DNA of 64,000 nucleotides from Acidobacteriota bacterium (lineage in GTDB: Bacteria; Acidobacteriota; UBA6911), in NCBI GenBank assembly GCA_012719355.1, contig JAAYAM010000214.1:1-64000 (forward strand), given 5' to 3'. Positions 44,195 through 56,202 of this stretch are shown one piece after another. The position numbers and the translations under genes are program-made. The notes under the pieces were generated by a model, which worked only from the letters and a program-made list of their open reading frames with translations, was not told the DNA's origin and searched no databases. Position 1 is the stretch's first letter, and every line of letters begins with the position of its first letter.

Positions 44195-45295
44195 TCAGTT
44201 GGCAGCCCGACCTACGATCCCCTTTGTCTTTGACGAGATTTTCTTCGCAGGCTCTTTGGGACGCAAGGTGCGGGTCGCCTTTCCCGCCAGCCACATTTCC
44301 GAGTTGGCCATTGCATTCAATTCTTTTGTCAGCTGCTTCTTGTAATCCCGGCGCCCGCAGCTCTTGAGAACACGCTCAGTCTCTACACCCGAGGCCACGC
44401 TTTTGTACAGTTCGTTGAATACCGGCATCACAGCTTTCTTGAACCTAGGCTTCCAGTCAAGTGCACCGCGCTGTGCCGTGGCCGAGCAGTTGGCGTACAT
44501 CCAGTCCATCCCGTTTTCCCCGACGAGCCGGATCAGGCTCTCGGTGAACTCTTCGACCGTTTCGTTGAAAGCTTCGCTGGGACTGTGGCCGCGTTTGCGC
44601 AGCACGTCATACTGCGCTTCCATCATTCCCGCAATTGCGCCCATCAGAACTCCGCGCTCGCCGGTCAGATCACTGTAGACCTCTTTCTTGAAGGTTGTGG
44701 GGAACAGATACCCCGAACCGATCGCGATGCCGAGCGCAAGACACCTCTCGCGCGCTTTTCCCGTCGCGTCCTGTTCGACCGCAAAACTGGCGTTGATTCC
44801 CGCGCCCGACAGGAAGTTGCGACGCAGCGATGTCCCGGATCCCTTGGGAGCAACCATGACCACGTCAACGTCCTGCGGCGGAACAACACCCGTCTGATCC
44901 TTGTAGACTATTGAAAATCCGTGAGAGAAATAGAGCGTGTCACCAGGTTCCAGCCGTTCCTCGACAATGGGCCAGATCGCCCTCTGGGCTGCATCTGAAA
45001 CCAGCATTTCGATGACGGTACCCCGCTCGCAAGCCTCTTCAATGCTGAACAGATCTTTGCCCGGTATCCATCCGTCCTTCCTGGCGCGGTCCCAATCCGC
45101 GGGATACTGCTTGGATTGTCCGACGATTACTTTGAATCCGTTGTCTTTCATGTTCAAGGCCTGCGCCGGCCCCTGGACGCCGTAACCGATCACCGCGATC
45201 GTGTCGCCCTTGAGCACGCTGCGCGCCTTGGCCATAGTAAACTCTTTTCGAGTGACAACTTCTTCCTTGATGCCTCCGAAGTCAATGAGCGCCAT
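44195..45295 (-). CDS. ilvC: Ketol-acid reductoisomerase
   Basis: IAVIGYGVQGPAQALNMKDNGFKVIVG, VDVVMVAPKGSGTSLRRNF, C-terminal KARI domain. Confidence 0.96.
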   Translation of the reverse strand: MALIDFGGIKEEVVTRKEFTMAKARSVLKGDTIAVIGYGVQGPAQALNMKDNGFKVIVGQSKQYPADWDRARKDGWIPGKDLFSIEEACERGTVIEMLVSDAAQRAIWPIVEERLEPGDTLYFSHGFSIVYKDQTGVVPPQDVDVVMVAPKGSGTSLRRNFLSGAGINASFAVEQDATGKARERCLALGIAIGSGYLFPTTFKKEVYSDLTGERGVLMGAIAGMMEAQYDVLRKRGHSPSEAFNETVEEFTESLIRLVGENGMDWMYANCSATAQRGALDWKPRFKKAVMPVFNELYKSVASGVETERVLKSCGRRDYKKQLTKELNAMANSEMWLAGKATRTLRPKEPAKKISSKTKGIVGRAAN

Positions 45296-49489: not shown

Positions 49490-49563
49490 GTATCCTGGAA
49501 GAGAAATTCTGTTTACATCATGAAAACGATATGGCAATGTTACGTATCTTGGTATAAGGAAAC

Positions 49564-49635
49564 ATGGCTCAGCGCACCATAACCCATATCGGCATCGCCA
49601 TTATTATCATCACCGGGGTATCGCCCGGCGGGTAA
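49564..49635 (+). CDS. Isoleucine-rich leader peptide MAQRTITHIGIAIIIITGVSPGG*
   Basis: 23-codon ORF with ataaggaaacATG start; Ile codons at 6, 9, 11, 13-16; upstream of cimA and immediately before an attenuator structure; below the supplied ORF-length cutoff. Confidence 0.85.
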   Translation: MAQRTITHIGIAIIIITGVSPGG

Positions 49636-49694
49636 AGGCTTGCAATGGTGCATGCACCGAGCCCTCATCCGCCAGGCGGGTGAGGGCTTTTTTT
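49624..49694 (+). promoter_or_regulatory. Transcription attenuator (antiterminator/terminator) of cimA
   Basis: Segment 2 cccggcgggtaaaggct (49624-49640) can pair with segment 3 agccctcatccgccagg (49660-49676; 14/17 incl. one G-U); segment 3 alternatively pairs with segment 4 ggcgggtgagggct (49675-49688), followed by T7. Confidence 0.85.
49660..49694 (+). terminator. Intrinsic terminator (attenuator) in cimA leader
   Basis: agccctcatccgcc/ggcgggtgagggct stem (one U-G) followed by ttttttt, lying between leader peptide and cimA start. Confidence 0.9.
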
Positions 49695-49723
49695 GTTAGA
49701 GAAGCTGATAACGGAGAGCTCGC

Positions 49724-51286
49724 GTGAAAATACGGATCTACGACACCACATTGCGGGACGGGACGCAGGGAGAGAGCGTCGCCTTCTCGGTGCAGGACAA
49801 ACTCAGGGTAGCTCGCAGGCTGGACGAGTTCGGGGTCGACTACATCGAAGGAGGATGGCCCGGCTCTAATGAAAAGGATGTCGAGTTCTTCAGTCGCGCA
49901 GCATCCCTGTCTTGGCGGTCGGCCAGAATCGCGGCATTCGGCAGCACAGCGCTGGCAAAGAACAGCCCGGATGAAGACGCCAATCTGAATGCACTGATCG
50001 CAGCCGACACCCCGGTCGTCACGATCTTTGGTAAGTCCTGGGACTTCCATGTTCACACTGCCCTGAGAATCTCCCTTCATGCAAACTGCGACCTTATCAA
50101 AGCCTCAGTCGCTTACCTGAAGTCGAAAGGGAGGGAGGTCATTTACGATGCGGAGCATTTCTTCGACGGCTTCGCCGCAAATCCCGAGTATGCACTCCAG
50201 ACACTGCGGGCCGCCGAAGCCGGAGGAGCCGATCTCATCACGCTTTGTGATACAAACGGCGGTACTCTACCGCACCAGCTGCAAGAGGCGATCCACCGGG
50301 TGAAAGCAACGGTAAAGGTTCCTCTCGGCATTCACTGCCACAATGACTCCGACCTGGCTGTAGCCAATACGCTTGCCGCGGTCCAGGCGGGCGTGGTTCA
50401 CGTCCAGGGGACCATGAACGGCTATGGCGAACGCGCCGGAAACGCCAACCTCTGCTCGATCATACCTAATCTGGAACTCAAACTGCGATATACCGTGGTC
50501 GGCCCCGAGCGGCTGCAGCTTCTGACCAACACATCCAGATTCATAAGCCAGATCGCCAACCTGCCCCATCGCAAGGACCTCCCGTTCGTGGGTGAAAGTG
50601 CTTTTGCACATAAGGGGGGCATCCACGTCAGTGCCATCATAAGAGACGCAAAGACCTACGAGCATGTCGAACCGGAGATGGTGGGAAACACCCGCAGAGT
50701 CCTCGTCTCCGAGCTTTCGGGCAAGAGCAATCTCATGTACAAGGCGCGTGAGATGAACGTGGACATCGCCGAACACGAAGAAGAGCTCAGGCCTGCGTTG
50801 AACCGGATTAAGAAACTCGAGAACCAGGGCTATGAATTTGAAGCAGCCGAAGCATCAATACGGGTCTTGATGGAAACCGCGCTCAACGGCGAACGGGAGT
50901 TTTTCAGAATTGACAATTTCCGCGTCGTCACCGACATGCACAGGACAGGCGAAGTCACTTCCGAGGCGACGGTCAAGATACGGGTAGGCGACCGCTCTGT
51001 CCACACTGTGGCCGAAGGAGATGGTCCGGTTCACGCACTCGACAGAGCTCTTCGGCTTGCTCTCAATCAGTTCTTCGAACCGCTTCGTTCCGTACAGCTG
51101 ACCGACTACAAGGTCCGGGTGCTTGAAGGAAGTCACGGGACCGGATCCAAAGTACGGGTCCATATCCAGCAGAGCGATGGCGACGAGAACTGGACGACGG
51201 TCGGAGTATCGGAAAACATCCTCGAAGCAAGTTATATTGCACTGGCCGACGGCATACGGTACAAGCTGCTGAAGGACCGCCTGTAA
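49724..51286 (+). CDS. cimA: (R)-citramalate synthase (CimA-type, LeuA family)
   Basis: GTG start; IRIYDTTLRDGTQGESVAFSVQDKLRVARRLDEFGVDYIEGGWPGSNEKD; GIHCHNDSDLAVANTLAAVQAG; LeuA dimer domain at C-terminus. Confidence 0.95.
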   Translation: MKIRIYDTTLRDGTQGESVAFSVQDKLRVARRLDEFGVDYIEGGWPGSNEKDVEFFSRAASLSWRSARIAAFGSTALAKNSPDEDANLNALIAADTPVVTIFGKSWDFHVHTALRISLHANCDLIKASVAYLKSKGREVIYDAEHFFDGFAANPEYALQTLRAAEAGGADLITLCDTNGGTLPHQLQEAIHRVKATVKVPLGIHCHNDSDLAVANTLAAVQAGVVHVQGTMNGYGERAGNANLCSIIPNLELKLRYTVVGPERLQLLTNTSRFISQIANLPHRKDLPFVGESAFAHKGGIHVSAIIRDAKTYEHVEPEMVGNTRRVLVSELSGKSNLMYKAREMNVDIAEHEEELRPALNRIKKLENQGYEFEAAEASIRVLMETALNGEREFFRIDNFRVVTDMHRTGEVTSEATVKIRVGDRSVHTVAEGDGPVHALDRALRLALNQFFEPLRSVQLTDYKVRVLEGSHGTGSKVRVHIQQSDGDENWTTVGVSENILEASYIALADGIRYKLLKDRL

Positions 51287-52498: not shown

Positions 52499-54319
52499 TC
52501 AGTCCAGGCTGCCCGTCGCCCGGCCCAGTTCCACAAGGGCTTTGGCATAGTCGACGCGCGCCCTGACCTCAGCCAGCTGCGCTGATCTCAGATCACGCTG
52601 CCGTGTTATCACTTGATACGGTATGGACGCGCCGGCAAGAAGTTTGTTCTCTTCCGCAGCCAGCAATTCGGTGCTCAATTCGACCGCCTTGTGAGCAGCT
52701 TCGACTTGAGCCTTCGACTGAACCAGTCCTATAAGGGCCTTGCGCACCTCGAGTTCGATTCTGGTGCGGGTGCGCTGCAGAGTAGTCTCGCTCTGTCGCT
52801 TCTCGAGCCTGGCTCTGTACACGTCTGCTTCCGCGGCGCGGTTCCGGATGTTGATCGAAAACGAAATTCCCACGGCATAATCCGGATAACTCCAATTCCT
52901 CACCTGCCGCAGGGCCTGCGACAAGCCTCCGGGGAGCACGACGGTGGCACCGCTCGAATCGGTGAAGATGCGGTTGCCGTACAGTCCCGAGCTGTTGAAA
53001 TTGGCAAAGAGAAGCAGGCTGGGACGCAGAGCATCTTTGGCGTACCGTATCGCGATATCCTGAATATTCAGGTTGATTTGACCCTGTCGCAGTTCGGGTC
53101 TGTTTTTCTGCGCGACTGACAGCGCATCAGCAAGCCTTGGAATATCGCTTTCGCGCGGTTCGGGAAGAGGGTCCACCGCTTCGATCTGGACGGAATCCAG
53201 CAGCCCGGCAAGATCACGGCTCATTACGTTCTTCAGCTCAACCTCGCGCAACTGCAGCGCTGTCCTGGATGCAACGAGATCGCGCTCCCTCATTGCGACC
53301 TCGGACTCCGAAGTGATAACGTCGAGTCCGGAAAGGGTCCCGATTTCCTCTCTCTGCCGGTTCTCTTCCAGGAGCCGCCGAGCGACTGCAAGAGACTGCT
53401 CGGCGACCTTTACATTCTCACGGGCGGCAACCAGTTCCCAGTAGATGCCCTGCGCCTGCGCCTGCGTTGTGTTTACCTGCAGTCGCACATTCTCCTTCAT
53501 GATGTCTTCTTCGTTCTCGGCGACTTCTATGAAACGCCGCCCGACCGATCTGCCGAAACCGCTGAGCAACTGCTGAGTGAAGTTGATGGAGAGCTGCGAG
53601 ACCACGTCCGGATTGTACCGGAGAAAACGCTGGGTGGAGCTCTGACGCATATTGTTGAGACTGACACTCAGACTCGTACCGGTGCTAAACGCCTGCGAAT
53701 AACGAGCCTGCAGAGCAACAGACCTGGTCTCCACCTCGGGCAACCCCGCCACCACGATCGAGTTCAGAGGACTGTTGGTACGGTCGATGCTGAAGCCGAT
53801 TGCCAGCGACGGGTCATAGGTTCCTCTTGGAAATCCGAAAACCTGCCTGGCACCTCCAGTGATACCGCCCGCGGATCCGAAACCTCCTACGCCACCGCCA
53901 CCTCCGAGACCGGCTCCGATCGCCCCTGAGAAAAGACCGCTCGGGATCTGCATTCCCGCGCCCCCGCGAGGAGCCCCGCCCCCTTTGACCCTCAGGAGAT
54001 CTGTCCAGGCATAATTGGCGCTGTTCCTCGTCGCCATTATGTCAAGGTTGTTTTCACTGACGGCGCTTTTCAGGTTTGTCAGCGATACCCGCAGCCTGCC
54101 GTCCTCGATCATCCGGAGGAGCTCCAGTGAATTCGACAGCTCCGATTGTGGGACTTTCTGCATCAGGTAAGGTTTGTAAAACCGCGGGAACCATTCCGGA
54201 TTCCGGCTGAGGTTCGGCATAGCTAACCTCTCCTGCGCGGCGGATATCACAGAAAAGCTCACCAGCAGAAGAGCCGTAAGAGCGGCCCGGACGAAGGGAA
54301 TTGTCCTGGAATGCATCAA
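52499..54319 (-). CDS. TolC family outer membrane efflux protein with Gly-rich insertion
   Basis: Two OEP-type repeats (ALTVAR/LVASRTALQLREVELKN; YRARLEKRQSETTLQRTRTRIELEVRKALIGL); Gly-rich segment GAGLGGGGGVGGFGSAGGITGG. Confidence 0.92.
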   Translation of the reverse strand: MMHSRTIPFVRAALTALLLVSFSVISAAQERLAMPNLSRNPEWFPRFYKPYLMQKVPQSELSNSLELLRMIEDGRLRVSLTNLKSAVSENNLDIMATRNSANYAWTDLLRVKGGGAPRGGAGMQIPSGLFSGAIGAGLGGGGGVGGFGSAGGITGGARQVFGFPRGTYDPSLAIGFSIDRTNSPLNSIVVAGLPEVETRSVALQARYSQAFSTGTSLSVSLNNMRQSSTQRFLRYNPDVVSQLSINFTQQLLSGFGRSVGRRFIEVAENEEDIMKENVRLQVNTTQAQAQGIYWELVAARENVKVAEQSLAVARRLLEENRQREEIGTLSGLDVITSESEVAMRERDLVASRTALQLREVELKNVMSRDLAGLLDSVQIEAVDPLPEPRESDIPRLADALSVAQKNRPELRQGQINLNIQDIAIRYAKDALRPSLLLFANFNSSGLYGNRIFTDSSGATVVLPGGLSQALRQVRNWSYPDYAVGISFSINIRNRAAEADVYRARLEKRQSETTLQRTRTRIELEVRKALIGLVQSKAQVEAAHKAVELSTELLAAEENKLLAGASIPYQVITRQRDLRSAQLAEVRARVDYAKALVELGRATGSLD

Positions 54320-56202
54320 TTCCCCTCCTTGAGCCTGTCCGGGCCTAACGGAGGCGCTGGAACGCGGGAGAGTTTGCCGCTTAAGGCATCGGAATAGTCG
54401 ATCCTGTTCCGCTCCAGTGTAATCCCTCTTGCCCGGTCCATTTCCACGAGTGCTTTTGCATAATTCGCCATGGCCGCGACTTCAGCCTGGCGCGCATTCG
54501 TGAAATCCCGTTCGCGCAAAATGACCTGATAGGAAGTGGATGCGCCGGCTTCCAGCTTTATCTTTTCTCCTTCCCACATTTCGCGTGCCAGTGAGGCGGC
54601 CTTGCGCGCAGCCTCGACCTGGGCCTTGCCTTGGATAAGCCCAATTACAGCCTTGCGAACCTCCATCGCGATGGTGTTGCGGGAACGCTGCCTGTTTATC
54701 AGAAGCTGGTTCTTTTCAAGCTGGGAGCGGAGATTGTCGGCCTGCGCCGTCCTGTTGCGCAGCGGTACCGAGAGACTGAAGCCCCCGGCATATTGCGGAT
54801 ACTTCGCCCTGAAGCTTTGAGCGAACGCGTCCGCCAATCCCGTGCTGGAGTTCTCACTGGAGCCCTGCAGCCCTGAACCGGCGTAAAATCCGAATACCGA
54901 AACACTCGGTTTAAGGTTCTGATCGGTGAAGCGAACCGAGACATCCTGGTTCTGCAGGCCGATCTCCGCCTGGCGGAGTTCGGGCCTCATCTCAAAGGCG
55001 GCCGCCAGGGCAGTCTGAGTCTCCGGAATGTCGGACTCCTGAGGGTTCGGCATCGGATCCCTGATGACTATCTGAGCGGCATCGAGTACTGGATCGACCC
55101 GCATGGCCAGCATATTCTTCAACGTGGCTTCCTGCAGTTGCAGGTTTGTCCGCGCCACAGTGAGGTCTCTTGTCCGGGCGGCAACTTCCGATTCAGCCGA
55201 TGTCACGTCAAGCGGAGACATGGTGCCGACTTCAACCCGTATCTTGTTGTCCTTGTAGAGCTGCTCGGCGACGGCCAACGCCTGCTCGGCCACCTTCACA
55301 TTCTCCTGGTGAGCGGCCAGCTCCCAATAGGCATTCTCAACCGCCACGATGGTGTTGATGACCTGGAGGCGGAACACGTCCTCTGCGACTTTCGTGTTGT
55401 TGCGCGCAACAATGATATACCGCTCATTGTAGAGCCGGCCGAAGCCGTTCAGGAGCGGCTGGTTCACCCCGATCGCGAATCTGGTCACCGAAGCCGGGTT
55501 GTACAGGAGATTCTGCTGAGTCGAGCTCTGCCGCTGCCCGTTTAGAGTCAGCGAGTAGCTGGTCCCGAGTGAAAACAGTTGCGCATAGCTGGCCGTGAAG
55601 GCCGTATTCTCACCTACCACATTGAAGATTCCGGAGACAACATTGGTATTGAGAGGAGAGGTGACCCGGTTATAGCTGAAATTTACGTTCAGGGTGGGGT
55701 CGAAGTTCCCGGCGGATCCCACCTGGACTGCTCCCCCTCCGCCGGTGATTCCGCCGGCGGAACCGACGCCGGATCCCGCCCCCGATCCGCTTATTCCCGC
55801 CCCAAGAGCACCTGACGTCAATCCTCCAGGGGTTGAACCGCCGGAAAAGCCGCGCGGGGATTGTCCCGCCTTGCTGCGAAGCAGGTCTGTCTGGGAGTAC
55901 TCCGGTATGTAGCGTTGCACGGCAATATCAAGATTGTTCTCCAACGCAAGAGCCAGGGCGTCGGCAAGCGTGAGGTTGAGTTTGCCGTTATCAATGAGAT
56001 CTTCAATTCTTGCGGTGTTGTCGAGCACCACCGGCGGAAGTTCTCGTCCACTATAAATGCTGAAAGGATTGGAGAAAAACCCTGATCCGGCGCGGTGCAT
56101 CACCAGGCTCACATCCTGTTGGGCAAAGAGCGCCGGCCGCAGAATCAGCCCCGAGATCATGCAGGCTACCAGCAGGGCCGATCGGAACGTATGCTTTGTC
56201 AT
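54316..56202 (-). CDS. TolC family outer membrane efflux protein, paralog of the adjacent gene
   Basis: NGKLNLTLADALALALENNLDIAVQRY, SAESEVAARTRDLTVARTNLQLQEATLKN; Gly-rich insertion GALGAGISGSGAGSGVGSAGGITGGGG. Confidence 0.94.
   Translation of the reverse strand: MTKHTFRSALLVACMISGLILRPALFAQQDVSLVMHRAGSGFFSNPFSIYSGRELPPVVLDNTARIEDLIDNGKLNLTLADALALALENNLDIAVQRYIPEYSQTDLLRSKAGQSPRGFSGGSTPGGLTSGALGAGISGSGAGSGVGSAGGITGGGGAVQVGSAGNFDPTLNVNFSYNRVTSPLNTNVVSGIFNVVGENTAFTASYAQLFSLGTSYSLTLNGQRQSSTQQNLLYNPASVTRFAIGVNQPLLNGFGRLYNERYIIVARNNTKVAEDVFRLQVINTIVAVENAYWELAAHQENVKVAEQALAVAEQLYKDNKIRVEVGTMSPLDVTSAESEVAARTRDLTVARTNLQLQEATLKNMLAMRVDPVLDAAQIVIRDPMPNPQESDIPETQTALAAAFEMRPELRQAEIGLQNQDVSVRFTDQNLKPSVSVFGFYAGSGLQGSSENSSTGLADAFAQSFRAKYPQYAGGFSLSVPLRNRTAQADNLRSQLEKNQLLINRQRSRNTIAMEVRKAVIGLIQGKAQVEAARKAASLAREMWEGEKIKLEAGASTSYQVILRERDFTNARQAEVAAMANYAKALVEMDRARGITLERNRIDYSDALSGKLSRVPAPPLGPDRLKEGN

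Follow-up and report, generated by a model that had tools for sequence, protein, structure and literature searches.

The window analysed here, a stretch of 64,000 nucleotides on contig C140 of a metagenome-type acidobacterial assembly (4.57 Mb in 377 contigs), carries cimA, a gene for citramalate synthase that is preceded by a predicted promoter, a short isoleucine-rich open reading frame (ORF) and an intrinsic terminator (Table 1). The gene had been named as cimA in the preliminary description of this DNA, and its match to an NCBIfam equivalog bears the name out. On the reverse strand, at 52499–56202, two adjacent, similar-looking ORFs resembling TolC-type outer-membrane efflux proteins lie in tandem, judging by the sequence alone.

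Table 1. Features of the cimA leader region, in window coordinates
Feature	Position	Strand	Basis and remarks
Predicted promoter	49512–49540	+	−35 TTTACA 49512–49517, 17-nt spacer, extended −10 TGG-CAATGT 49532–49540
Likely RBS (AAGGA) of leader ORF	49556–49560	+	sequence; several relatives purine-rich ahead of the start
Leader ORF, MAQRTITHIGIAIIIITGVSPGG*	49564–49635	+	7 Ile codons; putative sensor run ATT ATT ATC ATC 49600–49611
Segment 1, CCGGG	49613–49617	+	potential pairing with 49624–49628; L001–L005 only, broken in L006–L009
Segment 2, predicted antiterminator 5′ arm	49624–49640	+	leader stop 49633–49635 inside; GGCGGRTAR in 9/9 loci
Segment 3, predicted antiterminator 3′ arm and terminator 5′ arm	49659–49676	+	pairing computed, comparative
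Segment 4 and T7, intrinsic terminator 3′ arm and U-tract	49675–49694	+	T-run 51–52 nt past the stop in 8/9 loci
cimA, citramalate synthase, putative regulated gene	49724–51286	+	NCBIfam equivalog TIGR00977, 748.8 bits (cut-off 450)

The leader region of cimA

The leader ORF, of 23 codons with four of its isoleucine codons consecutive, agrees base for base with the one described previously. The segment coordinates and the competing pairing drawn at that time also hold: segment 2 can form 14 of 17 pairs with 49660–49676, one of them G-U, and the G+C-rich hairpin of segments 3 and 4 consists of a 14-pair stem with a loop of three nucleotides (49659–49689) and a T7 run at 49688–49694. The computed folding energy of the whole attenuator region is −56.9 kcal/mol (z = −3.1). 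The promoter was missed by a generic scanner because its −10 element is weak.

The likelihood that such an arrangement arises by chance was assessed within the window. Among its 1,131 short ORFs (10–45 codons, both strands), only the cimA leader encodes four consecutive isoleucines; a terminator-like site lies 35–75 nt past the stop codon of 52 ORFs, and the cimA leader alone is both isoleucine-rich and linked to a terminator at that distance. The duplex between segments 2 and 3 exceeds in strength that of about 99% of random windows in this locus; across nine loci of the family the corresponding value ranges from 98.5 to 99.97%. The placement of an isoleucine-rich ORF and a terminator before cimA is not a product of chance.

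Conservation among relatives

Ten of the 15 genomes sampled from the family contain a long CimA match (72–100% identity). The DNA upstream is intact in nine (L001–L009), and in the tenth a contig end cuts it. The full cassette of promoter, isoleucine-rich ORF, stop codon within segment 2 and T-run is present in all nine testable loci; CimA is 80% identical in the close relative G006, and the cassette is retained while the identity of the protein drops to 72%. A −35 element reading TTTACA or TTGCAA, followed by the extended −10 TGGCANNNT, is conserved in every locus and begins 31–41 nt ahead of the leader start codon. The leader ORFs are 19–25 codons long and end in I.I...PGG* or nearly so, and their 201 codons together include 45 for isoleucine, four for valine and one for leucine. 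The single departure in the distance from stop codon to T-run is L008, at 62 nt, where the terminator loop is longer. The conservation expected in the preliminary description is thus found for the isoleucine-rich ORF, for the capacity of segment 3 to pair with either segment 2 or segment 4 and for the T-run, but not for the run of four isoleucines, which occurs only in L001 and L009; the other relatives carry scattered isoleucine codons, three to six in total, with only three in L006.

Within the flanking DNA covered for the nine loci, a metallophosphoesterase gene lies upstream only in L001, L003 and L005. The neighbour upstream of the element therefore varies between relatives, and the element travels with cimA. 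This bears on the reading of the hairpin as a constitutive terminator of the metallophosphoesterase gene, to which an incidental isoleucine-rich ORF happens to be joined: in the window the hairpin does lie 3′ of that gene, but the conserved promoter sits between the two, the cassette persists in the six loci in whose flanks that gene was not found, and the spacing between leader stop and hairpin is constant. We consider this reading very unlikely.

Both competing structures are preserved. Over the nine loci the main stem of the terminator is 99% paired and the whole terminator structure 95% paired, against 37–62% when the alignment is slid, and the cells of the 2:3 antiterminator are 82.9% paired, against 28–48% when slid. 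Covariation, proposed earlier as a check on the helices, is weak in this set even though complementarity is kept: 75 of 500 shuffles reach the observed score for 2:3 and 50 of 500 for 3:4, values that fall short of significance because the segments hardly vary. The protector or pause hairpin formed by segments 1 and 2, part of the layout first proposed, can be drawn as described in L001–L005 and is not found in that form in the remaining four loci, so that a protector hairpin of exactly this form may not be essential.

Predicted ribosome-mediated control of cimA

The trp operon is the textbook case of leader-peptide attenuation, a mode of regulation known mainly from Proteobacteria and Actinobacteria. 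Several hallmarks of such systems recur here: a short ORF with a start codon and a plausible RBS lies between promoter and cimA in 9/9 loci, its codons are enriched for the amino acid of the pathway (45/201), an intrinsic terminator stands between leader stop and cimA, and the computed antiterminator overlaps the 5′ arm of the terminator and would be exposed only with a ribosome stalled on the sensor codons. We therefore hold with high confidence that the region 49512–49724 acts as a classical ribosome-mediated transcription attenuator, through which the availability of charged tRNA-Ile would determine how much cimA is expressed; that the region is transcribed, that ribosomes stall on it and that termination responds to isoleucine are inferred from sequence and comparison.

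According to this model, transcription would start near 49548 and a ribosome would enter the 23-codon leader. Under a shortage of Ile-tRNA it would stall at codons 13–16 and cover segment 1, leaving segment 2 free to capture segment 3 as it emerges, so that the terminator would not form in time and polymerase would continue into the gene. A ribosome well supplied with Ile-tRNA would travel on to the stop codon inside segment 2 and mask that segment, allowing segments 3 and 4 to pair and transcription to stop at the T-run. The isoleucine-rich ORF and the terminator hairpin together very probably serve to turn on isoleucine synthesis when charged tRNA-Ile is scarce. This logic, put forward in the preliminary description, gains support from the nine family cimA loci and from a Val/Ile/Leu-rich leader before ilvN in the same genome, described below.

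A ribosome-position model was used to compare the two states. With a ribosome on the last or second-last isoleucine codon, the RNA preceding segment 4 is predicted to fold at −21 to −28 kcal/mol in most loci, the exceptions being L002 on the very last isoleucine (−9.1 kcal/mol) and some second-last positions (up to −31.6 kcal/mol); with a ribosome at the stop codon, the same RNA folds at only −1 to −7 kcal/mol. Within the model, this is the contrast required for attenuation. The terminator is nevertheless the favoured structure at equilibrium in most cases, even when a ribosome occupies the isoleucine codons, and the 2:3 antiterminator would therefore have to act by kinetic trapping, as the antiterminators of classical attenuation systems do.

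A role for the leader in translation was also weighed. Genes often have leader ORFs nearby, and these have been proposed to raise translation through reinitiation (PMC4833913). The leader might accordingly work through translational coupling or through ribosomes that reinitiate on cimA, or ribosomes might protect the mRNA, in each case with the hairpin serving to stabilise the message. However, 88 nt and a strong T-tailed terminator separate the leader stop from the cimA start, and the antiterminator complementarity overlaps the stop codon in all relatives, which leaves this explanation with very little probability beside transcription attenuation.

The predicted cimA attenuator shares with the enterobacterial ilvGMEDA, ivbL, leu, thr, trp, his and phe attenuators a promoter, a short ORF rich in codons for the end product, mutually exclusive 2:3 and 3:4 structures and a biosynthetic gene directly downstream. 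It differs from them in the regulated gene, which belongs to the threonine-independent route to isoleucine, in its isoleucine-only leader, in its occurrence in the phylum Acidobacteriota, in the lack of a conserved 1:2 hairpin and in the position of the leader stop inside segment 2, by which the C-terminal residues of the leader (PGG*, RFG*) would be dictated by RNA pairing; there is no detectable sequence relation. Outside the Proteobacteria, the Corynebacterium ilvB-II motif and the ilvB-OMG and Leptospira ilvB motifs likewise place a BCAA-rich upstream ORF and a terminator before ilv genes (PMC10272879), but they differ from the cimA leader in gene and sequence, and no Rfam match links them. 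Ribosome-mediated attenuation has also been predicted comparatively for actinobacterial amino-acid leaders (PMC1262725), in a different phylum and on different genes.

In 2010, leader-peptide systems were said to be unknown beyond Proteobacteria and Actinobacteria, save for newly reported His leaders in bacilli, and a function could be attached to almost none of the attenuators predicted for Acidobacteria (PMC2965389); subsequent studies added ilvB-associated motifs with BCAA uORFs from various phyla (PMC10272879). The searchable literature yielded no description of a cimA attenuator and no published functional example of leader-peptide attenuation for Acidobacteriota, although an earlier comparative survey may have predicted some of these elements. 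The mechanism is of a known kind; its placement on cimA, as the preliminary description had guessed, and its spread through Acidobacteriota appear undescribed in that literature. A conserved isoleucine sensor on cimA would illustrate how RNA-level feedback could govern the threonine-independent route.

Related leaders on other genes and in other lineages

A covariance model built from the nine cimA leaders (R1) was searched in 38 genomes of the class. It recovered all nine and matched further leaders before pheA in G014 (a Phe leader, MLIAGVFSTFAFGFFKARGRLPGE*) and before ilvN in G001 and G011 (BCAA leaders). Eleven family genomes have an ilvN gene above the cut-off, and direct inspection located an attenuator before it in 10 of them, including the genome of the window; in G005 the start of the leader ORF lies off the contig. 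This second attenuator of the window's own genome comprises a Val/Ile/Leu-rich leader, ...LPVIVGVIIVVNVGILTGVSRFG*, and a terminator before ilvN (L162, G000:C40, 1280–1370 and upstream). Covariation in the ilvN set is not significant because there is too little variation.

The same inspection revealed a His leader, VTRHHHRHHHHGPHQSTG*, upstream of hisG in G014, and showed that trpE is preceded in most genomes of the family by a Trp-rich leader and a terminator (YWYWR, WHWWRR, WCWWR and WCWRR, sharing the motif WxW(W)R). A terminator GCCGTGA..TTCACGGC follows the Trp-rich leaders at the family trpE loci L229–L243. Most trpE leaders do not fit the model in which segment 2 surrounds the stop codon, and they probably use a different antiterminator. 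Across 24 non-cimA leaders, the distance from stop codon to T-run is 51–61 nt. No leuA leader was found in the family, and neither leader nor terminator was seen upstream of the ilvC gene of the window (44195–45295, reverse strand), 4 kb from cimA.

Elsewhere in the class, a compact three-segment isoleucine attenuator lies about 195–330 nt ahead of cimA in G027 (L018), with the leader GIGIIIISTTIPSAGF*, the antiterminator CCUUCCGC/GCGGAGGG and the terminator GCGGAG..CUCCGC-T6. Its sequence is unrelated to R1, and it is possibly a convergent design. Isoleucine-rich ORFs also precede cimA at L021 and L011, in class genomes from other families, but these lack a good T-run, so that only L018 is credible among the three.

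R1 and a second model, R2, were then searched in 396 Acidobacteriota genomes. At E ≤ 1e-4, R2 matched 44 of these genomes, from 29 of the 210 genera, its weaker matches having been only partly inspected. Matches of the two models include a leader before ilvD (RPVVVVVSRVGVVITPTASG*), a T-rich (Thr) leader before hom, an aspartokinase/hom (thrA) leader (ATTIVITTTTCGVPRG*), and leaders before ilvB and pheA-ilvB. Two more cimA genes, in another Acidobacteriota family, are preceded by leaders ...TIIIGGLIILPGSGSG* and ...LAIIIRSIILPGSGSG* (written also ...RLILTIIIGGLIILPGSGSG* and ...ALTLAIIIRSIILPGSGSG*). At ilvN, pheA, ilvD, hom and aspartokinase genes, the codons of the leaders found by R1 match the pathway of the gene downstream. 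The terminator stem shows covariation over this set of paralogous leaders, its score being reached by 2 of 500 shuffles; covariation of the antiterminator was not seen across the same set (317 of 500).

A conserved RNA with a terminator ahead of an amino-acid gene would also be expected of a T-box or metabolite riboswitch, with the ORF fortuitous. Yet Rfam contains no matching family, whether T-box, riboswitch or known leader, at gathering level for the window or at E ≤ 1 for eight related loci, and in the Ile, BCAA, Phe, His, Trp and Thr leaders alike the ORF codons correspond to the gene downstream; a riboswitch or T-box is accordingly extremely improbable. Transcription attenuation is the likeliest reading; each rival leaves the codon content, the fixed geometry or the promoter position unexplained.

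Many of these leaders share a core with the stop codon in the antiterminator (CGGAUGA / GGCGGAUAG), which suggests descent from one attenuator re-targeted by a change of sensor codons. On balance, we lean slightly towards a phylum-wide, previously unrecognised set of ribosome-mediated attenuators in Acidobacteriota that act on Ile, Val/Leu, Thr, Phe, Trp and His genes, derived in large part from one such ancestor and with cimA repeatedly a target. The shared core makes attenuator duplication and a switch of specificity by codon replacement testable, and the linked elements on ilvN, ilvB, ilvD, hom/thrA, pheA, trpE and his genes would amount to a map of amino-acid regulons in a large, mostly uncultured phylum.

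Several further loci resemble these leaders. In other Acidobacteriota families, Val-rich leaders LVGVVVVVTVVRPTG* and VGVVVLVVRPTG* precede a prephenate dehydratase gene at L257 and L269; ilvB comes next at L257, where a pheA-ilvB operon may therefore be under the control of the leader. In G376 (L204/L259, 1501–1607), the same attenuator-like pair of hairpins stands before an apparent glutamate synthase gene, and no leader with obvious Glu or Gln sensor codons was found there. A Val/Leu-rich leader, LSSVLVLVLSLVVVVGITPAMRAG*, and a terminator precede a gene for a LysR-type regulator in G361 (L262), and L265 in G087 looks similar from its sequence. Beyond the phylum, short ORFs containing Ile, Leu and Val codons, with a strong terminator and competing pairings, were seen ahead of cimA in a Deltaproteobacteria MAG (L100, −209 to −44 relative to cimA) and a Planctomycetota MAG (L105, −209 to −74); attenuation of cimA may thus reach beyond Acidobacteriota.
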